Origin: Bacteroides sp.
GTDB lineage: Bacteria; Bacteroidota; Bacteroidia; Bacteroidales; Muribaculaceae
Assembly: GCA_014802385.1 (NCBI GenBank)
Contig: JAAVCJ010000027.1
Coordinates: forward strand, 26,343 to 65,142
Length of the DNA stretch: 38,800 nucleotides
Direction: 5' to 3'
Shown: in pieces, positions 8,263 through 31,459 of the stretch
Numbering within the stretch: position 1 is the first letter of the stretch
Layout: each line of letters begins with the position of its first letter
Made by a program: the position numbers and the translations under genes
The notes under the pieces: generated by a model
Told to the model about the DNA's origin: nothing
Databases searched by the model: none
Seen by the model: only the letters and a program-made list of their open reading frames with translations

Positions 8263-11200
8263 ATGCGCGTTAAAAGCGAAAAAAGTACGAAAGGCATAGT
8301 CGCCCGCATGCAGATGCTGCTGGTGTCTCTCTCTATGCTTTTGGTGTGTTCGTTCACCGCAGCAGCGCAGGTTACAGTAACCGGTACCGTCCAGGACGAG
8401 ACCGGCGATCCGTTGCCCGGTGTTACTGTTATGGTGAAAGGCACTTCAACGGGTACATCGACCAACATCGATGGCCAGTACACAATCAACGCCCCTGCCG
8501 ACGGCACGCTCACATTCACCTATGTGGGCATGAATCCTCAGGAAATTAAAGTTGCCGGCAGGACCACAATCAACGTCACCATGAAAGAGGATACACAGAT
8601 GCTCGACGAGGTAGTCGTTGTGGGTTACGGCCAGCAGAAAAAGGTAACCATGACCGGTGCCGTTTCAGCCGTCGGTTCAAAGGAAATCGTGAAAACTGTA
8701 GGTACAAGCCTCTCACAATCACTCGTCGGTAAGCTCCCCGGCCTTATCACCATGCAGTCGGGTGGTCGTCCTGGTAACGACGGTGTAACCATTCAGGTGC
8801 GTGGTGCTACGTCTTATAAATCTGGTGGCACGACTCCACTTATTATTGTAGATGGTGTTAATCGTGGTAGCGATGGCTTGGCAGCCATTGACCCAAATGA
8901 GGTCGAGTCGATATCAGTGCTGAAAGACGGTGCGTCGTGTGCCGTGTACGGTATGGAAGCTAACAATGGTGTCATAATTATTACCACCAAGCGTGGTAAG
9001 GAAGGTACGGCCAAAGTAAGCTACCGAGGTACTGTAACCCTTAATCAGCCTACCGCTCTGCCAAAGATGATGAATGGTACCCAGTACATGGAATGGTATA
9101 ACAAGGCCCAGATTCTTGACGGTGTAGATCCGGCCAACGTTCTCTTTACTCCCGATATGATTGCCGCAACTACCAACGGCGATCTTACCGATGGTATTGA
9201 AAATACCGACTGGCTCTCGACCATGAAAAAGACCACGCTCAATACTCAGCACAACATCACCCTCACAGGTGGTTCGCAAAATGCCCATTATTTTATGTCG
9301 GGCGGTTTTATGAAGCAAAACGGTAACCTCAAGGGTCAGAGCTATCAGCGTGGTAACTTCCGTACCAATGTTGATGCTAAGGTGGTTAACTCATTGACCG
9401 TACAGTTCAGTGCCGCCGGTATCGTAGCCGACAGCTACTATCCCTCGGGTCAGACTTACGCTACTTCGTATGGTGGCTATTCACTCGAGAACCAGATGCT
9501 TTATTCTGCGCCCTATATTCCTAAGGCTTACTATATGTGTGATCCCAGTGATCCCCACTATGGCATGCCTACATCGGGTTTCCGTAACATCGGTCAGAAT
9601 CCCGAATATGCCGCCGGCCACACCGGTTTCATGGAGTCTCGTCGCGTCACCATCAATACATCGGGTCGCGTTGATTGGGATACTCCTTTTCTGCCCGGTT
9701 TCAAGGCATCGTTCTTCTTCGCATGGGACTGGTATGATCTGCGCAGCAAGTCATTCAACTACACATATCAGCTTATGGCATGGAACCCCGGTACCAAAAA
9801 GTATGTCGAGCAAACGTGTCCTAACCTTACTCCTACCGGTAACATGGCAGTAGGCGACGGTAAGAACCAAGATATCGTTCTCCGCCCCTCAATCAGCTAT
9901 ACCAATACATTTGCAGGTAAGCATAATGTTGATGCAATTTTCCTCTATGAAGAGCGTAAAAATAGTTCATCGTCATTAAGTGCCAATAGTAATACATTTG
10001 CATTCTTTGAGCTGCCTTATCTTAGCCAGGCTACTAAGGTACCTGACAATGTCAGACAGGTACATTCTGAGTCGGCCGGTAAGTCGCTCTACAAAGCATG
10101 GATAGGCCGTGTTGCCTATAACTACGAAGAGAAGTACCTCGCCGAATTCTCATTCCGTTATGACGGTTCATTTATTTTCCAACCTAAGAAACGTTGGGGT
10201 TTCTTCCCTGCCGGTTCATTAGGCTGGGTACTCTCAAGAGAGAACTGGTTTAAAGATTTTGCCGGTGATAATGTGAACTTCCTAAAAATACGTGGTTCAG
10301 TCGGTGTCACAGGTAACCAGCGTGGCGTAGGTGGTTGGCTCTATCGTCAGAATTATTCAGCCGGCTTGGGTAACGCAGTGTTTGGTACGACACCTACAAC
10401 AGCACCTATCTTGAGTTCCGTATATGCATATCTTCAGGATAACCTGACATGGGAGAAATGTCGTCAGTTCAACATCGGTGCCGAGTTGACAATGTGGAAC
10501 GGACTCTTAGGCGTTGAGGCAGATTACTTCTATAAGTACACCCACGATATTCTTGATACTGTATCGACATTGGCTTTCGCACCCTCTCTTGGTGGTAACT
10601 ATCCGACAATTGATCCTACCGGTCGTTTCGACAATCGTGGCTTCGAGCTTGTTCTGCGTCACACCAACCGCATAGGTAAGGTAGGTTATAACCTTAATGC
10701 TAACCTTACATGGGCTCATAACAAGACTCTCCGTAGGACTGAGAGTGCCGGTGTGTTGCCATGGCAGTCGAGTCTCGGCAATCCTCTCGGTCAGGTGATG
10801 GGCTTCCGTGCTCTTGGCCTGTATCAGACTCAGGAGCAGATTGACAATATGCCCAAGCCTATAGGCCAGACTCCCCGCATCGGTGATATCATGTATGAGG
10901 ACTTGAATGGTGACGGTAAAATCACGTCAGATGACCAGACATGGATTGCCCGCAGTCAGATGCCTGAGATGATGTTTGCCCTCAATGGTGAGGCTAACTG
11001 GAACGGCTTTGATCTTTCATTCCAGTTCTCTGGTGCCGCTCTTTGTGATAAGATGCTTGGCTCGGGTATGGCTGACTTCTGCCCGTTGACCCGTCCCTGG
11101 TATGGTAACTGGGATAACTCTCCCCTTTATCTCGTAGAGGGTTCATGGACTCCCGACAATGTAAATGCCGAGTATCCTCGACTCTCAGTTGTTGGCAACG

Positions 11201-11457
11201 CTCAAAATGCCTATATATCAACTTTCTGGAAGCGAAACGGCGCCTATTTGCGTTTGAAGAATCTGACTGTAGGTTACACTATTCCTACAAAGATTACCAA
11301 AAAAGCCGGTATCTCAAATGCTCGTTTCTTTGCATCTGGTGTGAACCTGTTCACTATTACTGACTTTAAATATCTCGATCCCGAAGGTGGTAACTTTGCT
11401 TGGTCGTTCTACCCCCAGCAGCGTACATTTACATTTGGTCTCGATCTCTCTTTCTAA
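8263..11457 (+). CDS. SusC/RagA-family TonB-linked outer membrane transporter
   Basis: A 1064-residue outer-membrane beta-barrel that imports oligosaccharides using TonB energy. I start at the ATG at 8263 (MRVKSEKSTKGIVARMQMLL), because it gives a good signal peptide ending SFTAAAQ; the frame stays open to a TTG at 8134 but the extension is not credible. In order: signal peptide (1-36), a carboxypeptidase-regulatory-like domain (about 37-115: VTGTVQDETGDPLPGVTVMV), the TonB box region DEVVVVGYGQQKK, the plug (LPGLITMQSGGRPGNDGVTI to ANNGVIIITTKRGKEG), and the barrel ending in aromatic LSF. No N-terminal signalling (STN) domain is present, so it is not expected to signal directly to an anti-sigma factor. 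susD follows 30 bp later. Confidence 0.97.
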   Translation: MRVKSEKSTKGIVARMQMLLVSLSMLLVCSFTAAAQVTVTGTVQDETGDPLPGVTVMVKGTSTGTSTNIDGQYTINAPADGTLTFTYVGMNPQEIKVAGRTTINVTMKEDTQMLDEVVVVGYGQQKKVTMTGAVSAVGSKEIVKTVGTSLSQSLVGKLPGLITMQSGGRPGNDGVTIQVRGATSYKSGGTTPLIIVDGVNRGSDGLAAIDPNEVESISVLKDGASCAVYGMEANNGVIIITTKRGKEGTAKVSYRGTVTLNQPTALPKMMNGTQYMEWYNKAQILDGVDPANVLFTPDMIAATTNGDLTDGIENTDWLSTMKKTTLNTQHNITLTGGSQNAHYFMSGGFMKQNGNLKGQSYQRGNFRTNVDAKVVNSLTVQFSAAGIVADSYYPSGQTYATSYGGYSLENQMLYSAPYIPKAYYMCDPSDPHYGMPTSGFRNIGQNPEYAAGHTGFMESRRVTINTSGRVDWDTPFLPGFKASFFFAWDWYDLRSKSFNYTYQLMAWNPGTKKYVEQTCPNLTPTGNMAVGDGKNQDIVLRPSISYTNTFAGKHNVDAIFLYEERKNSSSSLSANSNTFAFFELPYLSQATKVPDNVRQVHSESAGKSLYKAWIGRVAYNYEEKYLAEFSFRYDGSFIFQPKKRWGFFPAGSLGWVLSRENWFKDFAGDNVNFLKIRGSVGVTGNQRGVGGWLYRQNYSAGLGNAVFGTTPTTAPILSSVYAYLQDNLTWEKCRQFNIGAELTMWNGLLGVEADYFYKYTHDILDTVSTLAFAPSLGGNYPTIDPTGRFDNRGFELVLRHTNRIGKVGYNLNANLTWAHNKTLRRTESAGVLPWQSSLGNPLGQVMGFRALGLYQTQEQIDNMPKPIGQTPRIGDIMYEDLNGDGKITSDDQTWIARSQMPEMMFALNGEANWNGFDLSFQFSGAALCDKMLGSGMADFCPLTRPWYGNWDNSPLYLVEGSWTPDNVNAEYPRLSVVGNAQNAYISTFWKRNGAYLRLKNLTVGYTIPTKITKKAGISNARFFASGVNLFTITDFKYLDPEGGNFAWSFYPQQRTFTFGLDLSF

Positions 11458-11487
11458 TGTTGTTAAACACATTATAAATAGCTAATT

Positions 11488-13161
11488 ATGAAAAAATATA
11501 TATTAGGTCTTACCGCAGCAATTGCCATTGTGACTCCATCGTGTGAGAGTCTCGAGGTTGCACCAACAGGCTTTTTGGCATCGGAGGTAGCATACTCGTC
11601 GGTCGACCATCTCGATATGGTAGTCAAGAATTTCTACTCAACATTCCATGCTGTGGCCGATATCGAAACCGGTAAAGGTTTGACTGCAATAGATGATGGA
11701 GTATCCGATCTTTTGAAGTCGACATGGTATAACGTAGATGGCGGTGCTTTTAATAAGTTCTTCTTTCTGGATAATTATTTAACAGTTGAGAGCAACTTCC
11801 GTTCTAACTGGGGAACTATGTATACCTACATACGTATAATAAATCAGTTCTTTGACGATTATAACGAAGGTACAATCGCGTTGCCCGCCGAAGAAGTCGC
11901 TCCCCGCTTAGCCGAGGCTCGTTTCATCCGTGCATTCGCTTATCATCAGCTTGTCACTCGTCATGGCGGTGTTATTCTGCGAGATGAAGTGGGCGGTACC
12001 GACGACCACCGACAGAATAACAAGTCTCGCATGTCGACCGCCGACAGCTGGGAGTACGTTATCAGTGAGTATAAGAAGGCTGCCGCTGATCTGCCCGATG
12101 CATGGCCGGCTGCCGATAATGGCCGTATTACTAAAGGCGCTGCTTACGGTATGATTGCCCGTGCCGCTTTGTATGCCGAACGTTGGAATGAGGCTATCGA
12201 GGCTGCAAATGAGGTTATCGGCTCGTCACAGTATGCACTGTTGCCCGGAACCACAGTTACTGACTATAACAAAATTTTTGAGTTGCCTGCCAATAAAGAG
12301 TTGATCCTCCCGGTGTACTATGAGGTTGGTAACAAACAGCACTCTTGGAATACTTGGATTGCTCCTAACACCGACGCTGTGCTCGCTACAGGTGCTGAGG
12401 CCGGTGCCGCCATCTCACCCACTGAGGAGTATGTATCACAGTTTGATATCAAGGTAAACGGTACATGGGAGTCTTTTGACTGGGACAATCTTGCTAAATA
12501 TGGTAATGATCCCTATGCTAACCGAGATCCTCGATTCTATGCCTCGATTCTTTACAACGGCTGTACATGGAAAGGCCGTAAGCTCGAGTTCTATGAGGGT
12601 GGCAGCGATGGTTTCATGCCTTATACCGGTCTTGGTAGCCGTGATAATGTGCACTACACCTGCACAGGTTACCTGATACGCAAGTTCTTGACAACCAAAG
12701 AGTATACTTATACATATACTCTCAGTGACCAGCTTTGGCCCGAGATGCGTCTTGCCGAGGTTTACCTCATCCGCTCGGAGGCATACGCCCGTACTAACAA
12801 ATGGTCTGAGGCGTACACTGATCTGAATACTATCCGTGGTCGTGTAGGTCTTTCTGCCAAAGCTCAGAAGTCAAACTGGACTGATTATCTCGTTGATCTT
12901 CAGAAAGAGCGTATCTGCGAGCTCGGTATGGAGGGACATCGCTATGACGACATCATGCGTTGGAACATCCATCAGCAGGTGCTTAACGGTCAGCGTGTTC
13001 ATGGTGTGAAAATCACTAAGGTCGGCGATAATCTCAATTATGAGGTTGTAGAGTGTGATCTTCAGGATCGTAAGTTCCCTGTTAAGTACTCGATTTTCCC
13101 CATTCCTTACAGCGAGATTCAGGCCAACCCCTTGTGTGAGCAAAACGAACTTTGGAAGTAA
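11488..13161 (+). CDS. SusD/RagB-family glycan-binding lipoprotein
   Basis: A 557-residue surface lipoprotein that forms the lid on the SusC barrel. The lipobox is IVTPSC with Cys at residue 19, followed by acidic residues (CESLE) compatible with surface export. Typical SusD features: the N-terminal segment APTGFLASE, TPR-like helices with RLAEARFIRAFAYHQLVTRH at about 138-157, AAYGMIARAALYAERWNEAI near 213-232, and the C-terminal LAEVYLIRSEAYAR, LNTIRGRVGL and QKERICELGMEGHRYDDIMR blocks. The start is the only sensible ATG, 30 bp after susC. It pairs with the SusC encoded just before it; the specific glycan cannot be read from the sequence. Confidence 0.97.
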   Translation: MKKYILGLTAAIAIVTPSCESLEVAPTGFLASEVAYSSVDHLDMVVKNFYSTFHAVADIETGKGLTAIDDGVSDLLKSTWYNVDGGAFNKFFFLDNYLTVESNFRSNWGTMYTYIRIINQFFDDYNEGTIALPAEEVAPRLAEARFIRAFAYHQLVTRHGGVILRDEVGGTDDHRQNNKSRMSTADSWEYVISEYKKAAADLPDAWPAADNGRITKGAAYGMIARAALYAERWNEAIEAANEVIGSSQYALLPGTTVTDYNKIFELPANKELILPVYYEVGNKQHSWNTWIAPNTDAVLATGAEAGAAISPTEEYVSQFDIKVNGTWESFDWDNLAKYGNDPYANRDPRFYASILYNGCTWKGRKLEFYEGGSDGFMPYTGLGSRDNVHYTCTGYLIRKFLTTKEYTYTYTLSDQLWPEMRLAEVYLIRSEAYARTNKWSEAYTDLNTIRGRVGLSAKAQKSNWTDYLVDLQKERICELGMEGHRYDDIMRWNIHQQVLNGQRVHGVKITKVGDNLNYEVVECDLQDRKFPVKYSIFPIPYSEIQANPLCEQNELWK

Positions 13162-13182
13162 TCTATTTAACAAAGCAATTAT

Positions 13183-15057
13183 ATGAAACTTAAATATTTA
13201 TTCGCAGGGCTCGCCGCCTCGACCGTCATGCTCTCGAGCTGTGTTGAAGCTGATGAAGTAGCTCCGAAAGATGGTATTGGCGCTCAGCAGCTCGACGTGA
13301 AGGGTTACCTGGTAGAAGATGCTACCAACCTTTACGGTTCGGTTATTGATCCCGAGGCAGGCACAATCACAGTTCAGGTGCCCTACTATATCAGCGACAC
13401 CGAGCCTATAATGGGAGACATTACCCAGATGAAACTCGAGGCTGCAATGCCCGTAGGCTACAGCTTCAATCCCTCTATCAGCGGCATTCATGACCTGAGC
13501 CAGGGCTTCCGCACCAATCTTCTCGATGACAAAGGCCGTGCTACCTCATACACAATTGTTGCAGCTTATGTCAAGAATGCCGAGTCGCGTATCGTATCGG
13601 CCAAACTGACTGAGAGCGAGCGTACTGCTGTTGTAGTGCGTGAGCCTGCGAATGCGGGCGAACATGGTCAGGTTATAGTGGCCAAGACGTCATCGGCTAT
13701 TGACGGTGCACTACATGAGGTGGCTCTCGTTACCTCACCGTGGGCGACAGTGACATGTAGCGCACTCGATTCCGAGACCGGCTACGTAGACTTCTCGAAT
13801 AAGCCCGAAATCACTGTAACATCACAAGATGGTCAGCACAAGACTGTATATGACGTTGATATCCAGGTGCCCGATGTACTCTCTTCAGGTATCGGTTACA
13901 TCTCATCGATGTGGGCCAAGCAGCTCTACGTGGATAATGATGAGGGCTGGGAGACCGGTGCCAATGCCGGTATAGCAGTCGTTGATGACTATCTGATTGT
14001 CAGCAACGCCAATAATTTCAATGGAATGCTTGTATTCGACCGTTTCAGCGGCAAACGCCTCAATGATGTGAAAGTTAATACTGACGGTATTCCTGACGGC
14101 CGTATTATCCGTGCAATCACAAACGACGATGCCAACCATCTGGTAGCCGGCGTACTGACCAGCAACTCGTGGATGGTTACTCCGGCCAACGTGCTGATTT
14201 ACGTATGGAAAGATGGCATAACCAGCAAGCCTACTTGTGTGCTGGATGCTAATCTGGCCGGTTCATACTTTACCGGCGTACCGGGCTTGACGGCAATTGA
14301 TGTATTCGTTACAATGGATTGTGCCGGTGATATGACGAGCGGAAATGCTGTGGTGACCAATGTGTACCGCGCTCACTATGGTGGCGTGATGCTGATGCCG
14401 TTTGTTGACGGTAAGGCTGACGGTAACTGCATCTATGAGGGTAACCACGGTGCTCTCGGCTCGACATGGGACGCATCGACCGCTGTGCCTTTGTCTACCA
14501 AGGCACCCTGGGGTTATATAATCCACAGCGGTAATACCCGTGGTATTGTAACCTATATCCCCATTGGCTCAGGTAAGCGCGCACTTGAGTTCACACGTCC
14601 TACATCGCACTGGTGGGGAACAGCTGCCGGCAATAACTGGACCAATGGTGGCACATTAGGTATGGACTACATAGAGTTCAATGGCTGCAACCTGTTGGCT
14701 ATAGCGAACTGTAATGACACGCAGACTGCTACTCGTCTATATGTAACCGATATCACTGCATCGCCCTCGGCAACTTCACTCATGGACGGCTTTGTCTTTG
14801 ACTCACGCGAGGGCAGCAAGGTGGGTGACGCAGCCAATGGTGGCCCTGCCGGTACAGGTTATAGTGTAAGCGGTATGACTTCGCAGTACAGCTATGAGAG
14901 TGGCAAAGTGGTGCTTGGTGATAACCTCGGTTCGGTTAACCGTCGTACAAGTCCCGTGCTGTTTGCCCGCTCGGCCGACGGTAACGCCGTACAGGTGTAT
15001 ATGCTGACTCCTGACCAGGGTGTTCTCGCATACGAGATAACCCGCTTCGATCTCTAA
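13183..15057 (+). CDS. Surface lipoprotein of the SusCD operon, probable glycan-binding (DUF5018/DUF4623-like)
   Basis: A 624-residue lipoprotein: signal MKLKYLFAGLAASTVMLSSC with the lipid Cys at residue 20, then CVEADE, an acidic stretch compatible with surface display. Residues about 35-220 look like two beta-sandwich modules (PEAGTITVQVPYYISDTEPI; AAYVKNAESRIVSAKL). From about 235 to the end, repeated motifs such as GIAVVDDYLIVSNANNFNGM, LVFDRFSGKRLNDV and VLIYVWKDGITSKP suggest a beta-propeller. The gene lies 21 bp after susD, the usual position of a surface glycan-binding protein. The DUF5018/DUF4623 resemblance is from memory of such PUL lipoproteins and is tentative. No catalytic residues are recognisable. 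Confidence 0.75.
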   Translation: MKLKYLFAGLAASTVMLSSCVEADEVAPKDGIGAQQLDVKGYLVEDATNLYGSVIDPEAGTITVQVPYYISDTEPIMGDITQMKLEAAMPVGYSFNPSISGIHDLSQGFRTNLLDDKGRATSYTIVAAYVKNAESRIVSAKLTESERTAVVVREPANAGEHGQVIVAKTSSAIDGALHEVALVTSPWATVTCSALDSETGYVDFSNKPEITVTSQDGQHKTVYDVDIQVPDVLSSGIGYISSMWAKQLYVDNDEGWETGANAGIAVVDDYLIVSNANNFNGMLVFDRFSGKRLNDVKVNTDGIPDGRIIRAITNDDANHLVAGVLTSNSWMVTPANVLIYVWKDGITSKPTCVLDANLAGSYFTGVPGLTAIDVFVTMDCAGDMTSGNAVVTNVYRAHYGGVMLMPFVDGKADGNCIYEGNHGALGSTWDASTAVPLSTKAPWGYIIHSGNTRGIVTYIPIGSGKRALEFTRPTSHWWGTAAGNNWTNGGTLGMDYIEFNGCNLLAIANCNDTQTATRLYVTDITASPSATSLMDGFVFDSREGSKVGDAANGGPAGTGYSVSGMTSQYSYESGKVVLGDNLGSVNRRTSPVLFARSADGNAVQVYMLTPDQGVLAYEITRFDL

Positions 15058-15085
15058 ATCCTCGTTAATATAAAGTAATCTCTCT

Positions 15086-15120
15086 AATGGGGGTGAACCC
15101 TCGGTGGGCAAACCCCCATT
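15086..15120 (+). terminator. Hairpin after the SusCD-lipoprotein genes
   Basis: AATGGGGGT at 15086-15094 pairs perfectly with ACCCCCATT at 15112-15120; inside, ACCC and GGGT-like runs can extend the pairing. It lies 28 bp after the stop of the lipoprotein gene. It is followed by TTAAATTGATTCCTTTG rather than a clean T-run, so it may be a weak terminator or mRNA-stabilising structure that lowers expression of the downstream enzymes compared with susCD. Confidence 0.5.
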
Positions 15121-15147
15121 TAAATTGATTCCTTTGATATTGACCAT

Positions 15148-15190
15148 CTCTTCTCTCTCAATTTTGCTCAGACTCTTCTCTCTCCATTTT
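15148..15190 (+). repeat. Pyrimidine-rich direct repeat upstream of the SIS-domain gene
   Basis: Two 18-bp copies, CTCTTCTCTCTCAATTTT (15148-15165) and CTCTTCTCTCTCCATTTT (15173-15190), differ at one base and start 25 bp apart, in a tract from about 15145 to 15215 that is almost free of purines on this strand. It precedes the ATG at 15243 by 53 bp. It may be a regulator or RNA-binding site; no promoter box is evident nearby. Confidence 0.5.
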
Positions 15191-15242
15191 TCATTCTCCT
15201 CCCCTCCCTATTTTTAATATATAATCATTTAAAAGGCTATAT

Positions 15243-16301
15243 ATGACTCAGTTCCTTCAGGAAATCCTACAACAGCCGGAAGCTATAACTAATACTGCGG
15301 CTTATTATGATACGATGGCCGGTGAAAGTGCGCTAAGGCAGTTTACCGATGCTCTCAGCAGTGCCCGCAAGGTTGTCGCTACGGGTATGGGCAGTTCTTA
15401 TTTTCTGGCCAACGCGATGCAGGTTTTCCTCGCTAAGCACGGTATCGCCGTGACCGTAATAAATGCCGGCGAACTCTTACACTACGAACTCAATGTAGTT
15501 GATAATGACACGTTGCTTGTGGCTATATCGCAAAGCGGTGAAAGCTATGAGACGGTCAACGTGGTCAATAAACTGGACGAGGCCGGCGTCAGGCCGCGCG
15601 TGGCGGTTATCACCAATGAGCCATCCAGCACGTTAGGTCGTAGGGCCGATGTTCTGTTGCAGACGGTGGCCGGTGTTGAAAAAAAGACCTCGACCAAGAC
15701 ATTCATAACAGGTTTTCAAGTATTATATATGATTGAGAGGTGTTTGGCCGGCGAGACTGTCGGTGCTGACGTGTGGAGCAGCCTGTCCGGCTGCATCGCC
15801 GAGACACTCAATCAACGGAACAACGTGTTACCGGGCATGCTTCGCGCCCTGGGCGACGCGTCTTATTTGCAACTAATAGCGCGAGGCACGGTGATGGCAT
15901 CGGCGTCGCAGTCGGCCCTAATGGCGATGGAGGCAAGCCACACGCCATCGCAAGCGTTGGCTGGCGGCGAATTTCGCCACGGACCGCTCGAGATGGTAGG
16001 CCAGGGATTCACGGCTGTGGTACTGGCACCGACGACGTCGGGCACATGGGCTCAGACGGCGCGCCTTGTCGATGACATCATAAATTTTGGCGGCAGAGTG
16101 CTGCTGGTGACCGACCGTGACGATGTTTTAGAGTCGCGTGAAGGTCTGACGGTGGTTGCCGCACCGACGCCGCACCCCGAACTGTTCGCTATCACATCGA
16201 TAATCCCGGTGCAGGTAGCTATCGAGGCCTGGGCACGCGAGTATAGGGGTATAGAGCCGGGTATATTCACTCACGGAGCTAAAGTAACGGCCCGAGAATA
16301 A
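15243..16301 (+). CDS. SIS-domain aminosugar-phosphate deaminase/isomerase, NagB-II-like
   Basis: A 352-residue cytoplasmic protein of two SIS domains, like the isomerase half of GlmS without its glutaminase domain. Visible: VATGMGSSYFLANAMQVFLA (about 44-63) as the first phosphosugar-binding loop, VAISQSGESYETVNVVNKLD near 97-116, KKTSTKTFITGFQVLYM near 145, IARGTVMASASQSALMAMEA with the catalytic-type Glu, then GGEFRHGPLEMV, and a C-terminal RGIEPG...HGAKVTARE tail. This arrangement matches NagB-II, which converts glucosamine-6-phosphate to fructose-6-phosphate and ammonia; an AgaS-type or other ketose/aldose isomerase is the alternative. It lies 185 bp after the lipoprotein gene and 47 bp before a sugar kinase, with which it forms the cytoplasmic arm of the PUL. 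Confidence 0.75.
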   Translation: MTQFLQEILQQPEAITNTAAYYDTMAGESALRQFTDALSSARKVVATGMGSSYFLANAMQVFLAKHGIAVTVINAGELLHYELNVVDNDTLLVAISQSGESYETVNVVNKLDEAGVRPRVAVITNEPSSTLGRRADVLLQTVAGVEKKTSTKTFITGFQVLYMIERCLAGETVGADVWSSLSGCIAETLNQRNNVLPGMLRALGDASYLQLIARGTVMASASQSALMAMEASHTPSQALAGGEFRHGPLEMVGQGFTAVVLAPTTSGTWAQTARLVDDIINFGGRVLLVTDRDDVLESREGLTVVAAPTPHPELFAITSIIPVQVAIEAWAREYRGIEPGIFTHGAKVTARE

Positions 16302-16348
16302 TTCAGAATATAAAACAATTTATAACCAATCATAAACGATTACGATAT

Positions 16349-17242
16349 ATGTCACCTATAGGAACACGTGACCTGGCGATAGGTCTTGATATTGGCGGAA
16401 CAAAAATGAAGTGTGGTGTCGTTGATGCCGGCGGCAACGTTGTGGGTACGCCCCGCGAGGTGCCGACCAATGCACGTGGCCCGCGCGAGAAGATTGTGGC
16501 CGGCATACTTGATTTGCTTAATGAGGCGCTTGCCCAGGTGCCTGAGAACCGTCTGCGCGGTATCGGTATCGGCTGTTCGGGTCCGCTTGACATTATATCG
16601 GGTACGATACTGAAGTGTAACACGTTGCCGACGATGCACAATTATCCGCTTAAGCATATTATAGAGCTCACGACATGTAAGGAGGTGCGCATGAATAATG
16701 ACGCTAATGCCATGATGCTGGGTGAGGCTGTATGGGGTGCGGGCCGTGGCCGTCAGTCGCTGCTGGGTATCACGCTGGGCACGGGTATAGGCTGTGCGTT
16801 CATCAACAGCGGCCGTATCTGGACGGGCTTTACGGGCAATTCGGGCGAGATATGGCAGTCTCCCTATCGTGAAGGTGTGATTGAGGATTATGTGTCGGGT
16901 CCGGGTCTGAGTCGCATGTACAAGGATCTGGCCGGCATTGAGATTGGCGGTAAGGAGATTGCCGAGCGTGCGCGTGCCGGTGAGGAACTGGCACTGAAGG
17001 TGTTCGAGCAGTTTGCCGATGGTCTGGTGTTTGCGCTTGCGTGGACGTTGAATACGATCGACCCTGATGCCGTGATACTGGGTGGTTCGGTAGTGGATTC
17101 GAGCGACTTGTATCTGACGCGTGTGAAGGGCTTGCTGCCCAAATATATAACTCAGGAGGCTGCCGAGCATATCGAGATACTGACGGCTGGCCTGGGCAAC
17201 AATGCCGGTTTCATTGGCGCGGCTGCCCTGATGTTTGAATAA
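16349..17242 (+). CDS. ROK-family sugar kinase, probable amino-sugar kinase
   Basis: A 297-residue cytoplasmic ROK kinase. The ATP-phosphate loop is LDIGGTKMKCGVV near residues 9-21, the catalytic Asp is D118 in MNNDANAMMLGE, and GITLGTGIGCAFIN is the second phosphate block. Usual ROK kinases carry a zinc site made of a GH and a CxCGxxGCxE cluster; here the corresponding stretch after G166-E167 reads GEIWQSPYREGVIEDYVSGP, with no cysteine or histidine, so the zinc motif is lost. The neighbours (deaminase-like gene 47 bp upstream, hexosaminidases downstream) suggest GlcNAc, glucosamine or ManNAc as substrate; glucose cannot be excluded. Confidence 0.85.
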   Translation: MSPIGTRDLAIGLDIGGTKMKCGVVDAGGNVVGTPREVPTNARGPREKIVAGILDLLNEALAQVPENRLRGIGIGCSGPLDIISGTILKCNTLPTMHNYPLKHIIELTTCKEVRMNNDANAMMLGEAVWGAGRGRQSLLGITLGTGIGCAFINSGRIWTGFTGNSGEIWQSPYREGVIEDYVSGPGLSRMYKDLAGIEIGGKEIAERARAGEELALKVFEQFADGLVFALAWTLNTIDPDAVILGGSVVDSSDLYLTRVKGLLPKYITQEAAEHIEILTAGLGNNAGFIGAAALMFE

Positions 17243-17257
17243 CTGAATTTTTTATTA

Positions 17258-20038: not shown

Positions 20039-20050
20039 CAGTATATCAAA

Positions 20051-21670: not shown

Positions 21671-21698
21671 TTGCGTTTAATTGTTCTGTTGTACAATA

Positions 21699-23942: not shown

Positions 23943-23952
23943 GTATAACGAG

Positions 23953-25983
23953 ATGACAAAATCACCGATTGTAGCTTCATTGCTTATTGCCGCTCTCTCC
24001 TTTGCGGCCGAAGCCAAGACAACAGCCAGTCGTACATCGGCCGGAGATATCGTCCTGGCTAATGAGAACGCATCACTCACATTTGGCGGTGGAAAAGACT
24101 TTCAGTTCAAAGAATTTAATATGTCGGGCAAGGATTTACTGCCCGCTGGTGGCTCAACGACTTATCCCTGGCAGTTGACTTATCGCGGCCCCGTGGGTGA
24201 AAATCCTCAGTTGCGTCCTCAGTGGGGCGTGTACCGCGGAACCGAGATTACCGATCGTGACGGTGTTCCCGCCGTGAAGGCAACCTGGGACATGGTTCTC
24301 GATGACACTCCCCGCTGGCCAGTCACCGTTACTGTAACCTTAGCCGATGATGCCGCCATGCCGTCATTTTATATTGATGCATCGCTGCCCGACGATTGGG
24401 TGATTACCGACGTCGAGTTTCCGCGTATAACATTTAAGCAGATAAAAGGTGGCAAAGCCATAATGCCTATTGCCTATGGCTGTGAGTACAATCTCAGCCG
24501 CGAGGGACAACTGCAGACACGATACCCGTCGGTAACAGGCTCGATGCAGCTCATGATGATGCACGATCCGGCCGGTAACGAGGGCACGGTCTTCTTTGCT
24601 CCGCGTGATGCCGAAGGTGGCAACAAGGTTATGCGCATGAAGATGGAAGGTGACAACGTGACATTCCAGCAGGAAGTCACGGCCAATTATGACTGGAGTA
24701 AAGGTGGACAGTTCAGTCTCCCTTACGCTGTCGATGCCGGCTATAACCCTGCCGGTTGGCATCAGACGGCACTCGAGTGGTATCGCCCGTGGGCGCTCGA
24801 CACCAAATGGGCGTCACAAAATCTGCGTGACCGTCACATCGCTCCTTGGGTCGAGCACGCCGACATGTGGCTGCGTCCCGGAGACGTCGACGATGCTACT
24901 ATGAATGCCGTGCGTCAGGCCCTCAAGTATTATGGCAAGGGAGTCGGCCTACACTGGTACTATTGGCACAATCATCCGTTTGATACTCATTATCCCGAAT
25001 ATTTCCCTGCCAAACCGGGTTTCAAGGATATGATAGCTGAGGCACAGCAGATGGGAGCTCATGTCACACCCTATATCAATGGGCGCCTGTGGGATCCCGC
25101 TATCGACAGTTACAAAGCCGAGAATGCCAAAGAGGCATCGTGCCGCAAACCTGACGGAACTCTCTACACTGAAGTCTACAGCTCTAAGGTCCTCAATACC
25201 GTTACATGTCCTGCAAGTCAGTTGTGGCAAGACAAGCTGCACTATCTCAACCGCCACATTCTTGATAGCCTTGGTACCGATGGTGTCTACATGGACCAGA
25301 TAGGTTGTGCTGCCGCTGAACCGTGCTACGCCGACAATCACGGGCACGGCAAGGGTGGTGGCTCATGGTGGCCCGAGGCTTACCGCAAGGTGCTTACCGA
25401 TATGCGCCAATCCTTCTATACCCCCGACCAGGCTATGACAACCGAAGAAAATGCCGAGCCATATATCGACCTTTTTGATATGATGCTGGTGGTCAACTCA
25501 CCCCATGCCGCATATATGCGCATGGTACCTCTTTTCCCGCTCATATACAGCGACCGCTGTGTCTATAGTGGTTTTACCTACGTGCCTTGGAATATAAATG
25601 ACGGCTCGCTGCGCTATATGACCATGAAGTCGCTCCTGTGGGGGGCGCAGCTCGGCTGGGTTGAGCCCAAACTGCTTATGAACGAGGCCAACCGCGATGA
25701 GGCACTGATGCTTAAAAATTTGACGAAATTCCGTAAGGATAACCATGACATCTTCTTCGGCGGACGTTTTATGTCTGAGTTTACTCCCGGTGGCGATAAC
25801 GTTACGTTTGATGTGCCAAACTATCAGCCTACCCCGGTTGTGATGGGAGCCGAATGGATCGACGTCAAGGGCAAACGGTTTTATATCGTAGCCAACATGA
25901 GCGATACTGACCGTACGGTCACGCTTCCAGACGGAAAATCAATCAAAGTCAAAGCTTTTGATGCTGCTAAAAAAGCTATCTAA
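23953..25983 (+). CDS. DUF6259-like TIM-barrel protein, putative glycoside hydrolase
   Basis: A 676-residue exported protein with signal MTKSPIVASLLIAALSFAAEA and no lipobox, so periplasmic. An N-terminal beta-sandwich (about 25-260) precedes a barrel: GKGVGLHWYYWHNHPFDTHY (about 330-350), AQQMGAHVTPYINGRLWD, DSLGTDGVYMDQIGCAAAEP with D448, then MTTEENAEPYIDLFD with E498/E499, then SGFTYVPWNINDGS. The strand-end acids D448 and E498 or E499 are the natural catalytic candidates. The C-terminus (about 600-676) is a small beta domain of GH type. Resemblance to DUF6259 proteins is from memory and tentative; no activity is known to me. It is the last gene before a fresh promoter (26015-26044), so it probably ends the long enzyme transcript. 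Confidence 0.68.
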   Translation: MTKSPIVASLLIAALSFAAEAKTTASRTSAGDIVLANENASLTFGGGKDFQFKEFNMSGKDLLPAGGSTTYPWQLTYRGPVGENPQLRPQWGVYRGTEITDRDGVPAVKATWDMVLDDTPRWPVTVTVTLADDAAMPSFYIDASLPDDWVITDVEFPRITFKQIKGGKAIMPIAYGCEYNLSREGQLQTRYPSVTGSMQLMMMHDPAGNEGTVFFAPRDAEGGNKVMRMKMEGDNVTFQQEVTANYDWSKGGQFSLPYAVDAGYNPAGWHQTALEWYRPWALDTKWASQNLRDRHIAPWVEHADMWLRPGDVDDATMNAVRQALKYYGKGVGLHWYYWHNHPFDTHYPEYFPAKPGFKDMIAEAQQMGAHVTPYINGRLWDPAIDSYKAENAKEASCRKPDGTLYTEVYSSKVLNTVTCPASQLWQDKLHYLNRHILDSLGTDGVYMDQIGCAAAEPCYADNHGHGKGGGSWWPEAYRKVLTDMRQSFYTPDQAMTTEENAEPYIDLFDMMLVVNSPHAAYMRMVPLFPLIYSDRCVYSGFTYVPWNINDGSLRYMTMKSLLWGAQLGWVEPKLLMNEANRDEALMLKNLTKFRKDNHDIFFGGRFMSEFTPGGDNVTFDVPNYQPTPVVMGAEWIDVKGKRFYIVANMSDTDRTVTLPDGKSIKVKAFDAAKKAI

Positions 25984-26014
25984 GTTATTTAATGAAATTT
26001 CGTACTATAAAATT

Positions 26015-26044
26015 TTTGATAATCAATTAATTTGAATATATTTG
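26015..26044 (+). promoter_or_regulatory. Internal PUL promoter (TTTG-N18-TATATTTG)
   Basis: TTTG at 26015-26018 is followed after 18 bp by TATATTTG at 26037-26044, fitting the Bacteroidota sigma-ABfr consensus. The next gene starts at 26124, giving a leader of about 75 nt. It lies in a 140-bp AT-rich gap after the DUF6259-like gene and would let the last three PUL genes be transcribed independently. Confidence 0.65.
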
Positions 26045-26123
26045 TCAATACTTTTTAACACTGTGAGAAGTAATTGGCACAGTAATAACACAAAATAGAA
26101 TAAAAACCTTAAAATAAGTTAAC

Positions 26124-27746
26124 ATGAAAAAGTTATTTATCACATTAGCAACGAGTATGGCCGTTTTGGCTGCATGCTCTGATGGCTTTGATGCTGTAAT
26201 CAGCGACATGCAGTCACCGTCTGATGTCGCAGTAGAGCGTCTAAGTGCTACCGAGATTAAACTCACATGGACTGATAATGCTACAGCCGAGACCGGTTAT
26301 GTTATCATGGCCCGTCGTGCCGATGAACCGGCAAGCAATTTGAAATCGATTGGCGAAGTTGCCGCCAATGTGACATCGTTCACAACAACCGATTTGGCCG
26401 AGGGCTATAAATATTATATAGGAGTGAAAGCCGTTAACGGTAAAGAAGAGTCACGTGTTATCTCGGTTCTATTTGACATGGCCACTTATGACCTCATGGG
26501 TAATGCCAGGATTGATGAACTAAAGTCGGGCACAAACTGCATCTATGGTGAGTACACTGTTTTGAACAGCTCTAAAGTTACTGAGTGGGGTCTTTGTTTG
26601 AGCGCCGATGGTACTCCCACTGTCAACGATATTCACATTTCAGGACCTAAGCAGGCTGATGGTGGCAAGGTGTTCCAGGTAATACCCAACACTCTCCTCG
26701 AGTATGGCGTTGAATACAACGTGCGTGCCTATGCCGTTACAGCCGACGGTATCAACTACAGTGCTACTTCTAAAGCTTCGATGACAAAAGAGTACCCCGC
26801 TATCACCCTTGAGTGGACTAAGGTGTCAACTCCCGATATTCCCTCGGCAATCGAGGTCTACAGCACCACCAGCAAACTCAATGGCCTTGCTTTCGAAGCC
26901 TGGTATGCGATCGCTGATGTTAAAAACAGCGACGTTGAGTTCCGTGTGAATGTGCCCGCATCGGCTCAGACCATCGATGACCAGGCAGCTTCGTTCAACG
27001 GTGACTGCTACATCATGGTTAACGGTGGTTACTTCTACAACGAGAAACACACCGGTCTGGCTATTGTTAACGGCAAAGCCGAGGGTTCGATTAACGAAGT
27101 GCGTGGCTCACTGCTCACCTCAAGCCCTGAATATTATGAAATGTACAACGTTACCCGCGGCATCTTCGGTGTTGACGCTGCCGATCAGCCCCGTGCATTA
27201 TGGGCCGGCACTGATGGCGACAGCAAAACCAAATATTACACTACTCCCGCGCCTTGTGTAGTAGGAGAGAACAAGTATGGTAAAGTTAGCGCCAAATACC
27301 CTGTTGAGCCCACCGCCTGGACTCCCAAGTTTGCCCTCAGCGCCGGACCGCTGCTTCTTATCGACGGTAAGATACCCTTTGACTTCACCATGCTGCCTGC
27401 CGGTGAGGGTTACTATCTGACCAACTATGAGGTTATCGCTTACGATATCTTCGGCACCAATGTATCGCCTGACCGTACTGCTGCCGGTTGTACTGCCGAT
27501 GGCAAGATAATCCTGTTTATATGTGACGGTCGCACTGCCCAGTCGGGCGGCGCTACCCTACTGGAGCTTGCCCAGATCATGAAGGGTCTCGGTTGTGTGG
27601 ACGCTGTCAACTTTGACGGTGGTGGCTCAACAGGTATGATGGTAGGTGACAAGCACATCAATAAGGCTGTCATCGAGAATTCTAACGGCAGCCAGTCGCC
27701 CTATAACCGTGCCGTTGTATCGACTATGGGCTTCTTTAAGAAATAA
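26124..27746 (+). CDS. Lipoprotein with phosphodiester glycosidase (NAGPA) domain
   Basis: A 540-residue lipoprotein: MKKLFITLATSMAVLAAC, lipid Cys at residue 18, then CSDGFD, compatible with surface display. Residues about 30-115 form a fibronectin type III domain (SPSDVAVERLSATEIKLTWT), 120-220 a second beta domain, and about 225-540 the NAGPA domain: CYIMVNGGYFYNE, FALSAGPLLLIDGKI, DRTAAGCTADGKIILFICDG, and the family signature NFDGGGSTGM at 496-505. The human relative (uncovering enzyme) removes GlcNAc from GlcNAc-1-phosphate-6-mannose; bacterial members are thought to cleave sugar-phosphodiester bonds, but few are characterised. In a PUL with two hexosaminidases it suggests a substrate containing phosphodiester-linked amino sugar. 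It has its own promoter. Confidence 0.87.
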   Translation: MKKLFITLATSMAVLAACSDGFDAVISDMQSPSDVAVERLSATEIKLTWTDNATAETGYVIMARRADEPASNLKSIGEVAANVTSFTTTDLAEGYKYYIGVKAVNGKEESRVISVLFDMATYDLMGNARIDELKSGTNCIYGEYTVLNSSKVTEWGLCLSADGTPTVNDIHISGPKQADGGKVFQVIPNTLLEYGVEYNVRAYAVTADGINYSATSKASMTKEYPAITLEWTKVSTPDIPSAIEVYSTTSKLNGLAFEAWYAIADVKNSDVEFRVNVPASAQTIDDQAASFNGDCYIMVNGGYFYNEKHTGLAIVNGKAEGSINEVRGSLLTSSPEYYEMYNVTRGIFGVDAADQPRALWAGTDGDSKTKYYTTPAPCVVGENKYGKVSAKYPVEPTAWTPKFALSAGPLLLIDGKIPFDFTMLPAGEGYYLTNYEVIAYDIFGTNVSPDRTAAGCTADGKIILFICDGRTAQSGGATLLELAQIMKGLGCVDAVNFDGGGSTGMMVGDKHINKAVIENSNGSQSPYNRAVVSTMGFFKK

Positions 27747-27767
27747 TAAATAACTTACCCTTATATC

Positions 27768-27884
27768 AGGGCGGTGCTGCATAACCGATATCAGGTATCG
27801 ACACATTATCTTCGTCAGCGAGCGGAGTGAAGTTATATGATGTGTGAGCTGTAAATAATTGATATCGAATGTCGGCACCGCCCT
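27768..27884. repeat. 117-bp nested inverted-repeat element between two lipoprotein genes
   Basis: AGGGCGGTGC (27768-27777) and GCACCGCCCT (27875-27884) are perfect complements. Inside are two more pairs in register: CGATATCA (27786-27793) with TGATATCG (27860-27867), and ACACAT (27801-27806) with ATGTGT (27840-27845); CTTC/GAAG (27810-27813, 27829-27832) can close the tip. The whole gap between the NAGPA and DUF4855 genes is thus one long folded element, either a structured RNA in the transcript, an attenuator or a small non-autonomous repeat with terminal inverted repeats. No target-site duplication was found. Confidence 0.7.
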
Positions 27885-27903
27885 CTCAAATTATACTGAA
27901 TAT

Positions 27904-29112
27904 ATGAAGAAGTTTCTGAGTTTGTTGCTTTTTGCCGCCATGTTGCCATTGACTGCCTGTGGTGACAAGGAGCCCGACTATATAATCGTTCCTACTAATC
28001 CCACATCGCCTGACAATCCCGACGACCCGACGACCGGCGGTGATGAGAAGTATTTGTGGGAAGAAGAACGTGTAGGACTGCTCGACTATACCGACATGGT
28101 GCTATTCTATGGCGGAGGTACTCAGCGCTACATTCCCAATTGGGATAAAGACCGTCTTGAAAGTTATGTCACTTACACCGACAAGAGCGGCCGGGAAACA
28201 TGGTTCTTTGACTCGTTCCTGTTCCTGGAGTTTGCCGACTATGGTACAGGATCCCAAATGGTGACCTATGCAACCGGTTATAAAGATCCGAGTGGTACTA
28301 TTCTCAGTTCGGCTACAAAGTATGACTGGGAACGCCTCATAAATTATTACTTTCTAAGAGGACACAATCTGTATGCTCTCGATGAGACTGTAGGCGATGC
28401 AATCAAACGCCTCGGCGAGCCTTCTTACAAGCGTCGTGTTGTGATTACGGTTCCGGAGCCTATCACCCGACAGAACTGGAATGTCGCTACCTCGTCGACA
28501 ACTTACTGGGGGCGTGTAGATGGTGAGCAACTTGACTTCGCCAGAGATGCCGACCGCGTCACTGCGTGCAAGTGGTATATCAACCGCGTGCGCGAACTCT
28601 TTGACAAGGCCAATTTCAAGAATCTTGAACTCGCCGGCTTCTATTGGATTGCCGAAAAGTCGACCAATACATCGACCATACTGCCTCGTGTTGCCGAGTA
28701 TGTACACAAGTTTAATTACACTTTTAACTGGATTCCGTACTATACGGCCGACGGATACTCACAGTGGTCAACATGGGGATTTGATTATGCCTACCTGCAG
28801 CCCAACTACTTCTTCAATGAAGATGTTCCTATAAGCCGTCTTGATGAGGCCTGCAACATGGGCCGCAATGCCGGCATGGGCATGGAAATGGAGTTTGACG
28901 ACAACGCATTGGCGTCGCGCGGTAAGGCTTACCGGCTGCGCAACTATATGGACGCGTTCAAGCGCAACAAGGTGTGGGATAATCAACGCCTCGCTTATTA
29001 TCAGCATAATAATACCGTTCACACTCTAAAACACTCGTCCAACTCGGCTGATGTTGAGTTGTATCATGAATTTGCTACATTTGTGACCACACGTCCTTAT
29101 CGCTACCGTTGA
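27904..29112 (+). CDS. DUF4855-like surface lipoprotein, possible glycosidase
   Basis: A 402-residue lipoprotein. The ATG at 27904 gives MKKFLSLLLFAAMLPLTAC with the lipid Cys at 19, followed by CGDKEPD and a Pro/Asp-rich spacer (about 25-45), typical of a tethered surface protein. The body has barrel-like blocks: LDYTDMVLFYGG, ETWFFDSFLFLEFADYG, LELAGFYWIAEKST (E251), YTFNWIPYYTADGYSQW, FDYAYLQPNYFFNED, GMGMEMEFDD (E328, E330). Such WIPYY and QPNYFF blocks are what I remember of DUF4855 proteins, which have no activity known to me. E251 and E328/E330 at strand ends make a retaining glycosidase plausible. The stop overlaps the TTG start of the following GH20 gene. Confidence 0.7.
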   Translation: MKKFLSLLLFAAMLPLTACGDKEPDYIIVPTNPTSPDNPDDPTTGGDEKYLWEEERVGLLDYTDMVLFYGGGTQRYIPNWDKDRLESYVTYTDKSGRETWFFDSFLFLEFADYGTGSQMVTYATGYKDPSGTILSSATKYDWERLINYYFLRGHNLYALDETVGDAIKRLGEPSYKRRVVITVPEPITRQNWNVATSSTTYWGRVDGEQLDFARDADRVTACKWYINRVRELFDKANFKNLELAGFYWIAEKSTNTSTILPRVAEYVHKFNYTFNWIPYYTADGYSQWSTWGFDYAYLQPNYFFNEDVPISRLDEACNMGRNAGMGMEMEFDDNALASRGKAYRLRNYMDAFKRNKVWDNQRLAYYQHNNTVHTLKHSSNSADVELYHEFATFVTTRPYRYR

Positions 29113-31418
29113 AAAAACTGATGTTAAAAACAATATTATTAACAGCCGCCGCGTCGATACTATCAGTGTCGGTCTCGGCGGCTGTGCAGCGTCATGGCGT
29201 TGCCGATTATCACACCATTCCGTTACCACATGACGTCGCCATGCGGCATGGGCGTCCGTTCCTGTTGGGGGAAGATGTGTCAATTGTTGCGCCTGACAGC
29301 CTTGATACTGAGGCTCGTATTTTGCGTAGCCAGCTTGGCGTTTCCGGCCATGGCGCTTCATCGGGGCCCATAGTGCTATCGGCCACGCTCGCCGATTTTA
29401 ACCCTGAGGCATATACTCTTAATGTGACCGGCGACAGTGTCGTTATCAACGGCGCATCACGAGCCGGGGTTTTCAGAGCTATAATGACCTTGGTCAAGTC
29501 ACTTCCATCTCGGACTGATGGCGAGGTGCTCATGCCGGCCGTAGGCATATATGACCGCCCCAGATTCGCCTACCGCGGCATGCATCTCGATGTAGCCCGT
29601 CATTTTTTCCCGGTGTCAGACGTCAAGACCTATATCGACATGATGGCTCTGCACGGTATGAACACGCTCCATCTGCACCTTACCGACGATCAGGGCTGGC
29701 GTGTCGAGATTAAACGGTACCCGCGTCTGACGACAGTTGGCTCACACCGCGACAGTACAATTATCGGTCGCACAGGCCCGGGCTATGACCACACCCCGGT
29801 TGACGGATTTTACACTCGAGCTGATGTTGACTCGCTCGTGAGATATGCGGCCGACCGGCACATTCAGATTATTCCCGAGATAGACTTGCCGAGTCACATG
29901 CTTGCGGCGCTTGCAGCCTATCCTGAGCTGGGTTGCACGGGCGGCCCGTACAGCGTTTGGGGTAGATGGGGCATTAACGATGACGTACTGTGTCCCGGTA
30001 ATGATCTTACGCTTGAATTTATTGCCGATGTGCTTGAGGAGGTAATGGATATGTTCCCGGCGCCATATATACATATAGGTGGCGACGAATGTCCGCGTGT
30101 CAGGTGGCAGGCTTGTCCCAAGTGTCAGGCACGCATTGCCGAACTTGGTCTCGTGGAGAAAGATGGTATTAGCCCTGAGGCTCAACTTCAGGAGTTTATA
30201 ACGCGTCACGCTTGTGAGGTCGTGCGCCGTCACGGTAAGAGTCCGATAGGCTGGGACGAACTTCTTGAGTGTGAAGCTCCGGCCGATGCCATCATAATGT
30301 CGTGGCATGGTGTCACTGGTGCGATCGAAGGAACGCGTCGCGGTCATCGTGTCATTCTAACACCGTCACAGTATTGTTATTTCGATTATTTTCAAAGTCC
30401 TGACGGCCCCGATGAGCCGTTTGCTGTGGGAGGTCTTACCTCGGTCGAGAAAGTCTACTCGCTCGAGCCTTGCCCCGCCGAGTGGCAGGGTGAGCGTGCC
30501 GACCTCGTGATGGGCGTACAGGCCAATCTATGGACTGAATATATCAAGACATTCGATCACGTATGTTATAACGTGCTGCCGCGCATGGCCGCGCTGAGCG
30601 AGGTGCAATGGGTCGATGCCGACCACAAGGATTATGAGGATTTCAGATCTCGTATTCCTCATCTCATGGACACATACGAAGCCCGCGGCTATAACTATGC
30701 GCGTCACGTGAGCGATGTAAATGTCAAGTATCATACTAACCATGCCGACCGTTGTCTCGAAATGACGTGTACGGCACTCCCGGGTTATGACATACGCTAC
30801 ACTCTCGATGGTTCGGAGCCAACGATGGCCTCAACACGATATGTCGATACCGTGAGGCTTGACGCCGATTGTATTATCAAGGTCAATAGCTTCGCAGCCG
30901 ATGGACGTGCTGGTCGAACTGTGTGTGATACTCTCGAAGTCAGCAAACTGACATTCGGCGTCGTCGAGCTCGTCGACCAACCTTATTATGTGTATGCGTT
31001 TCAAGGGGCACCACAACTTGTCGACGGATTGAAAGGTACGCGATATTTTCGAACGGGCCGATGGCTTGGTTTCTCGGTTAAAAATCTTGATGCTGTCGTG
31101 ACGCTGCCTGAACCTACCGAGCTATCTAAGGTGTCGTTCCGTACGGTGGTTAAGCCTGTTGATGCACTTGCCGATGCAGTTGATGCCTGTGTGTATGGGT
31201 CGGTCGATGGCGAGATATTTACATTGCTCGCTACCGAGACTTATCGTCCCGACGACCCAGCTTCAGAGCATCACATAGAGAGTCATACACTCACATTTGA
31301 CCCTGTGGAGCTGACCAAAGTAAGAGTAGTTATACGACCGGTTGCTAAATTACCTGCCGAGCATCCGCAGGGCGGCTGGCCTGCGCTTATGTTTGTTGAT
31401 GAGTTGCGGGGTTGGTAG
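29109..31418 (+). CDS. GH20 beta-N-acetylhexosaminidase with C-terminal accessory domains
   Basis: A 769-residue exported enzyme if read from the TTG at 29109, which overlaps the preceding stop (TTGA); an ATG at 29121 would give 765 residues and the signal peptide MLKTILLTAAASILSVSVSA equally well. The GH20 N-terminal domain is at about 30-145, and the barrel at 150-500: RGMHLDVARHFF, LHLHLTDDQGWRVEIKRYPR, IIPEIDLPSHMLAA, catalytic D326-E327 in HIGGDECPRV, and GVQANLWTEY. After it come a chitobiase-type C-terminal domain (YTLDGSEPTMASTRY near 570) and an F5/8-type discoid-like beta domain to the end. No lipobox, so periplasmic. The first GH20 lacks these modules, implying different specificity. 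Confidence 0.95.
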   Translation: MKKLMLKTILLTAAASILSVSVSAAVQRHGVADYHTIPLPHDVAMRHGRPFLLGEDVSIVAPDSLDTEARILRSQLGVSGHGASSGPIVLSATLADFNPEAYTLNVTGDSVVINGASRAGVFRAIMTLVKSLPSRTDGEVLMPAVGIYDRPRFAYRGMHLDVARHFFPVSDVKTYIDMMALHGMNTLHLHLTDDQGWRVEIKRYPRLTTVGSHRDSTIIGRTGPGYDHTPVDGFYTRADVDSLVRYAADRHIQIIPEIDLPSHMLAALAAYPELGCTGGPYSVWGRWGINDDVLCPGNDLTLEFIADVLEEVMDMFPAPYIHIGGDECPRVRWQACPKCQARIAELGLVEKDGISPEAQLQEFITRHACEVVRRHGKSPIGWDELLECEAPADAIIMSWHGVTGAIEGTRRGHRVILTPSQYCYFDYFQSPDGPDEPFAVGGLTSVEKVYSLEPCPAEWQGERADLVMGVQANLWTEYIKTFDHVCYNVLPRMAALSEVQWVDADHKDYEDFRSRIPHLMDTYEARGYNYARHVSDVNVKYHTNHADRCLEMTCTALPGYDIRYTLDGSEPTMASTRYVDTVRLDADCIIKVNSFAADGRAGRTVCDTLEVSKLTFGVVELVDQPYYVYAFQGAPQLVDGLKGTRYFRTGRWLGFSVKNLDAVVTLPEPTELSKVSFRTVVKPVDALADAVDACVYGSVDGEIFTLLATETYRPDDPASEHHIESHTLTFDPVELTKVRVVIRPVAKLPAEHPQGGWPALMFVDELRGW

Positions 31419-31459
31419 CAAAATGTTGTTGAGTGGGGTGTATTTATGGAAAAATTGCG

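Follow-up and report, generated by a model that had tools for sequence, protein, structure and literature searches.

Which glycan is served by the twelve plus-strand genes at positions 8263-31418 of a 38,800-nucleotide stretch (the window) from a Muribaculaceae genome assigned to Bacteroides sp.? These genes lie between housekeeping genes, rlmN and pgi on the left and gluQ on the right, with all flanking genes on the minus strand, and their guanine-plus-cytosine content is 47-55%, compared to 60-62% in the flanking genes. The host genome (2.78 Mb, 99.6% complete) has Muribaculaceae metagenome assemblies as its nearest relatives. The locus is a SusC/SusD polysaccharide utilization locus (PUL): the susC and susD genes are adjacent, and the carbohydrate-active enzymes linked to them are conserved as a unit. 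By its gene content it is a new type of PUL, and at least one of its proteins, of 747 amino acids and here called U753, is a candidate for a new glycoside hydrolase (GH) family. We put at roughly 0.6 the probability that the locus is a PUL that moves horizontally and serves a glycan with both N-acetylated and free amino sugars. An initial annotation of this DNA had already described a PUL of twelve plus-strand genes, and domain scans bear out the gene types and coordinates it gave. All family assignments exceed the curated cut-offs in Pfam or NCBIfam profile searches; U753 has none.

Gene order is strongly conserved. The order SusC-SusD-DUF5018-SIS-ROK-GH2-GH20a-U753-DUF6259-NAGPA-DUF4855 is identical in five further Muribaculaceae genomes (G038, G059, G003, G015 and G108). 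The expectation that all twelve genes would be co-conserved holds for these eleven and fails for the last gene, GH20b (29109-31418; PF00728, E = 7e-109, with C-terminal domains), which was found in just two of the six genomes compared (the window genome and G038) and is accessory, outside the conserved set. The chromosomal site of the eleven-gene set is fully common to the window and G038 and differs in others. When genome contigs were searched with an alignment of U753 sequences, 40 loci were recovered. GH20a, U753 and DUF6259 are contiguous in 19 of them, which are all 19 of the cassette loci, and within the cassette DUF6259 always directly follows U753; NAGPA and DUF4855 come next in 11 of the 13 cassette loci with enough downstream sequence. 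Eleven loci have both the SIS and the GH2 gene, and five have neither. Few genomes have these genes, 7 of 198 in the family for U753 and 5 of 295 in the order for DUF4855; hosts of the cassette include Alistipes and Bacteroidales of the rumen and reticulum. The cassette-bearing genomes are related, and these counts are not counts of independent events, but the range of lineages involved (Muribaculaceae, Alistipes and rumen) is most simply read as co-inheritance for function. The twelve-gene neighbourhood is not due to chance, and the lack of co-conservation that the initial annotation had named as a refutation was not seen.

The protein that sets this locus apart is U753 (21699-23942, from the preferred start codon at 21699). 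Searches of Pfam, NCBIfam, PHROGs and the PDB sequences gave no match to it, even when a profile of 35 sequences was used against the PDB. An AlphaFold2 model built from 35 sequences (predicted local distance difference test, pLDDT, 89.5; predicted TM-score 0.87) consists of a beta-sandwich, a barrel and a C-terminal sandwich. Foldseek ranked FpGalNase, a GH36 enzyme of Flavonifractor plautii, at the top (E = 1e-17, probability 1.00), followed by GH101 endo-alpha-N-acetylgalactosaminidases (E = 6e-17) and then by GH36 and GH31 enzymes. Residue D461 of U753 is invariant and E493 is 94% conserved; they are 32 residues apart, the same spacing as between D764 and E796 of GH101 (residues from PDB entry titles). 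The tentative likeness to FpGalNase and GH101 lies in this Asp-Glu spacing and in the predicted fold, whereas no sequence relationship is detectable, and the missing Pfam and PDB sequence matches place U753 outside GH101 and GH36 by homology. On the strength of the model, U753 probably represents a new family of glycosidases, and we predict a retaining alpha-glycosidase of the GH36/GH101 type that probably acts on an amino sugar.

Relatives of U753 outside the cassette bear on its substrate. In one Muribaculaceae locus (L029:3302-11668) a U753 copy ends an operon that encodes GlpA, GlpB, GlpC, a GlpT/UhpC-like transporter and a HAD phosphatase, and on a second, short contig (L028:89-3166) U753 stands with a HAD gene; the copies in these settings show 67-74% identity. 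The window genome carries the same Glp genes without U753 (G000:C24:2222-8767). Judged by gene context, this placement ties close relatives of U753 to glycerol-3-phosphate, and besides NAGPA it is the sole evidence for a phosphate-bearing substrate. More distant relatives of about 810-830 amino acids occur across Bacteroidales genera (L082, L084-L090), and 39 of 393 genomes match in all; for one of these longer proteins that was tested, a solved structure was not found. In an Oscillospiraceae locus (L058:7686-17059) a U753 homologue is flanked by UxaC, UxuA, an SDR protein and two GH39 proteins, which suggests a uronate-containing substrate for that distant branch.

The neighbouring enzymes also point to amino sugars. 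Both GH20a, a conserved predicted beta-N-acetylhexosaminidase (20051-21670; PF00728, E = 2e-106), and GH20b have the PF00728 domain and the HIGGDE motif with its catalytic Asp-Glu pair (GGDE). The GH2 protein (17258-20038; Ig_GlcNase domain, PF18368) has as its closest solved relative over the full length the exo-beta-D-glucosaminidase CsxA (PDB 2vzo; E = 4e-61, profile E = 7e-95), and the next solved relative is a beta-mannosidase (profile E = 1e-52). Its catalytic residues were assigned as E522 and E602. The nucleophile E602, invariant in 12 copies, aligns to E541 of CsxA, and E451, also invariant, aligns to E394, at the position usually held by His. In the GH2_16 glucosaminidases a Glu replaces this usual GH2 His, and Ser-Asp is found in place of Asn-Glu and is reported to be strictly conserved (PMC12243196). 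The GH2 protein plausibly acts like a glucosaminidase, and its relationship to CsxA points to free glucosamine, not N-acetylglucosamine (GlcNAc) alone. The initial annotation had named GlcNAc or glucosamine as the target; amino sugars stand, now with an emphasis on free glucosamine, yet the enzyme behind that emphasis fails the GH2_16 motif.

Three further proteins complete the enzyme set. The NAGPA protein (26124-27746) is a surface lipoprotein that joins an FN3 domain (PF00041) to a phosphodiester glycosidase domain (PF09992, E = 1e-24). The latter scores 87.8 bits against a cut-off of 25 and matches solved NAGPA or uncovering enzymes in the PDB; the domain is real, and phosphodiester glycosidase activity is predicted from it. 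With the human mannose-6-phosphate uncovering enzyme NAGPA and bacterial DUF2233 proteins it shares this domain and the DGGGS motif region; unlike them, it is a surface lipoprotein with an FN3 domain within a PUL. The DUF4855 surface lipoprotein (27904-29112, from the preferred start codon at 27904; PF16147, E = 8e-95) is modelled as a TIM barrel (pLDDT 86) whose structure matches only generic barrels, one of them a dispersin. A lipoprotein signal and conserved acidic residues suggest that it is a surface endo-enzyme, and its neighbours in other Bacteroidales are mixed (GH16, PIG-L deacetylase, alpha-fucosidase) and do not fix its role. DUF6259 (23953-25983; PF19773, E = 9e-93) is a predicted periplasmic glycosidase-like protein. 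PDB sequence searches gave no homologue of DUF6259 or DUF4855, and antibody matches of DUF6259 were judged to be chance. Treating U753 and DUF6259 as one family was not borne out, as a profile comparison gave a weak N-terminal match (probability 55%). U753, DUF6259 and DUF4855 keep the status they had been given before, as enzyme-like proteins with no assigned function; U753 is now better described as a predicted GH36/GH101-type alpha-glycosidase.

The locus probably also encodes the means to use amino sugars once they reach the cytoplasm. The SIS-domain protein (15243-16301; PF01380) is a predicted amino-sugar-6-phosphate deaminase of the GlmS isomerase type without the glutaminase domain. 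The Glu, His and Lys that are the catalytic residues of the GlmS isomerase domain are kept in 12 of 12 aligned copies. The adjacent ROK-family sugar kinase (16349-17242; PF00480, E = 5e-52) belongs to the family and falls under the N-acetylglucosamine kinase equivalog cut-off (117 of 380 bits). NagA, above its curated cut-off, is encoded near the cassette in five loci (L034, L035, L044, L045 and L062), three of which also have NagP-like transporters that score under the NagP equivalog cut-off. The four loci that lack SIS and GH2 but have visible downstream sequence all carry NagA, and L044 has the SIS/GH2 set and the NagA set together, plus NagB. In the window genome, homologues of NagA, NagP and NagB are clustered on contig C12, away from the PUL, and are 49-59% identical to the cassette-linked copies. 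Cytoplasmic amino-sugar use, as first proposed, is well supported as a prediction by the GlmS residues and by the Nag genes both near the cassettes and in the host's own genome. We infer two branches: GlcNAc via NagP, a kinase, NagA and NagB, and free glucosamine via the GH2, ROK and SIS proteins.

No full-length GlmS was found in the window genome or in six other cassette-bearing Muribaculaceae, and the only GlmS-like match in these genomes is the SIS gene of the PUL. The possibility that the PUL led to the loss of GlmS was set aside, since GlmS is also missing in many cassette-free Muribaculaceae, one of them of the same genus. In genomes that carry the cassette and have no full-length GlmS, scavenged amino sugars may serve the cell's own wall synthesis besides energy.

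These components can be assembled into a pathway whose basis is the gene families, their co-conservation, the conserved catalytic residues and the predicted folds; from these we infer the location of the steps, the linkages and the substrate. The surface lipoproteins SusD, DUF5018, NAGPA and DUF4855 would bind the glycan and make the first cuts, NAGPA probably at a hexosaminyl-1-phosphodiester and DUF4855 presumably as a barrel enzyme of the endo type. SusC would import the fragments. In the periplasm, GH20a would remove beta-N-acetylhexosamine; U753, with D461 as the proposed nucleophile and E493 as the proposed acid/base, would probably cleave an alpha-hexosaminide; DUF6259 may trim a further linkage; and the CsxA-like GH2 would free beta-linked, non-acetylated glucosamine. 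GlcNAc would then follow the NagP-NagA-NagB route encoded elsewhere in the genome, and free glucosamine would be phosphorylated by the ROK kinase and converted by the SIS deaminase to fructose-6-phosphate, bypassing NagA.

Several observations weigh against this reading. The SIS protein is far under the curated cut-offs for NagB-II (41.8 of 430 bits) and GlmD (56.4 of 580 bits). The acid/base motif of the GH2 is Asn-Glu (N521-E522), invariant in 12 copies, in place of the Ser-Asp of GH2_16 and CsxA; for this reason the protein is not filed in GH2_16, although it keeps both the nucleophile and the Glu that replaces the usual His, and it probably forms a separate subfamily. The top structural matches of U753 have TM-scores of 0.34-0.43 (about 0.4 for FpGalNase and GH101) and root-mean-square deviations of 13-15 Å, so that the sugar specificity of U753 is not readable from its fold. 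The Glp association concerns U753 alone, and the PUL itself holds no phosphatase, phosphosugar or polyol-phosphate gene.

There is good support for an amino-sugar glycan as the substrate, and an alpha-hexosaminide and a phosphodiester within it are plausible. The most likely substrate is a surface polymer of other microbes that contains both amino sugars and phosphate, at about even odds against the alternatives considered here taken together. The nearest folds of U753, a blood-group A galactosaminidase and GH101 mucin core-1 enzymes, would suit a host glycan, in which U753 would act on alpha-linked N-acetylgalactosamine or GlcNAc of mucin-type O-glycans or other host glycoprotein glycans, the GH20s on beta-GlcNAc, and NAGPA in some other alpha-hexosaminide role. 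The gut host range agrees with this, as does a SusC/SusD locus of Bacteroides thetaiotaomicron, BT0438-BT0442, in which the DUF4855 gene BT0442 is near an alpha-N-acetylglucosaminidase gene; the table in that source lists SusC/SusD and DUF4855 as in the present locus but names none of the GH20a-U753-DUF6259-NAGPA core there (PMC10434189). A domain scan of our locus, however, found no sulfatase, sialidase, fucosidase or galactosidase gene, and the free-glucosamine branch (GH2 and SIS) has no obvious use on mucin. The cassette also occurs in rumen and reticulum genomes, and mucin is scarce in those compartments. A microbial surface polymer is favoured over mucin by these hosts, by the missing sulfatase, sialidase and fucosidase genes, and by the Glp association, and we consider the host-glycan explanation unlikely.

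To a similar degree improbable is the idea that the alpha-glycosides cut by U753 and DUF6259 are neutral or acidic (of galactose, uronic acid or another sugar), the amino sugar being a mere side chain. Foldseek also gives GH36 and GH31 alpha-galactosidases and alpha-glucosidases for U753, with E near 1e-13, and U753 adjoins a GH27 gene in L052 and the UxaC, UxuA and GH39 genes in L058. These neighbours, however, belong to distant homologues (33-45% identity), and the sugar-catabolic genes beside the cassette are of the nag type. Less probable still is that DUF4855 splits, and GH20 and GH2 trim, a polymer of beta-linked glucosamine that is deacetylated in part (poly-beta-1,6-GlcNAc or chitosan). 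A GH20, a CsxA-like GH2 and a glucosamine deaminase are the exo set expected for such a polymer, and a dispersin is among the fold matches of DUF4855, alongside many other barrels; but NAGPA and the alpha-type retaining fold of U753, both about as conserved as GH20, would be left unexplained, and five cassette loci have neither GH2 nor SIS. The microbial surface polymer can itself be made more specific: U753 would found a GH family of retaining alpha-hexosaminidases whose targets are amino sugars linked to phosphorylated polyols, and the PUL would feed gut and rumen Bacteroidales on the phosphate-containing, teichoic-acid- or capsule-like surface polymers of their neighbours. This version is tentative, and in all its parts it is more doubtful than not, if somewhat less so than the alternatives above.

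In its general plan the locus resembles the Sus-type PULs of Bacteroidota, with an adjacent SusC/SusD pair, a further surface lipoprotein, surface and periplasmic glycosidases, and cytoplasmic sugar use. It differs in having no regulator gene within 8263-31418, in an enzyme set that matches no PUL described in the literature searched, and in its three enzyme-like proteins without known activity. Literature searches on DUF6259, NAGPA in PULs, exo-glucosaminidase in Bacteroides and teichoic acid PULs found no described equivalent, in agreement with the initial annotation. As a whole that interpretation is partly supported: its gene set, co-conservation and pathway logic stand. If the present reading is true, this type of PUL serves a class of substrate assigned to no gut Bacteroidales in the literature searched, and it includes at least one new glycosidase family, that of U753, with relatives outside Bacteroidota. 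Recombinant enzymes offer a direct test of the substrate, since few genes, in a fixed order, make up the conserved set.

The capture genes have a history of their own. They encode a SusC-type TonB-dependent transporter (8263-11457, with an ATG at 8263; TIGR04056, 948 bits), a SusD-type surface glycan-binding lipoprotein (11488-13161; PF07980, E = 2e-50, with a lipobox Cys) and a DUF5018 lipoprotein, likely the third surface glycan-binding protein (13183-15057; PF16410, E = 2e-23, also with a lipobox Cys). Between the window and G038 the enzymes are 81-95% identical, while SusC, SusD and DUF5018 are 67%, 55% and 51% identical, respectively, and the closest copies of these three (8263-15057) are found in G003 and G015/G108, not in G038. 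The capture genes are mosaic and evolutionarily uncoupled from the enzyme genes.

DUF4855 genes also occur in other contexts. G038 has an additional one between SIS and ROK (L012:18128-19090). It is a homologue of a second DUF4855 protein of the window genome (G000:C25:220186-221109; L010:14539-16218), which is 559 amino acids long, has a C-terminal extension and lies outside evident PULs. In another Bacteroidales genome, a DUF4855-bearing SusC/SusD locus includes a gene of the PIG-L (GlcNAc-PI de-N-acetylase) family (L070:17025-17909).

The locus is probably transcribed as two or three units and not as one, as suggested by a strong hairpin after DUF5018 and a promoter match before NAGPA; the capture genes, enzymes and surface enzymes are expected on partly separate transcripts. 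The plus-strand hairpin, at the boundary between the capture genes and SIS (15086-15120; z = -3.0 in the window), is also present in four relatives, and in the three of these that were tested it is terminator-like, with z from -4.2 to -7.0. The Bacteroidota-type promoter match (26015-26044, plus strand) has the form TTTG-N18-TAnnTTTG, of which the window contains four matches against 0.38 expected. An Rfam scan gave no match. A long plus-strand hairpin of 117 nucleotides separates NAGPA from DUF4855 (27768-27884; z = -5.6). It is single-copy in the genome, which ruled out a dispersed mobile element, and three relatives also have a long hairpin at this place (z from -2.7 to -4.8), with a different stem sequence and AGCTGT in common. 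Between the convergent GH20b and gluQ genes lies a perfect inverted repeat (31458-31501; z = -6.9) that is likely a bidirectional terminator.

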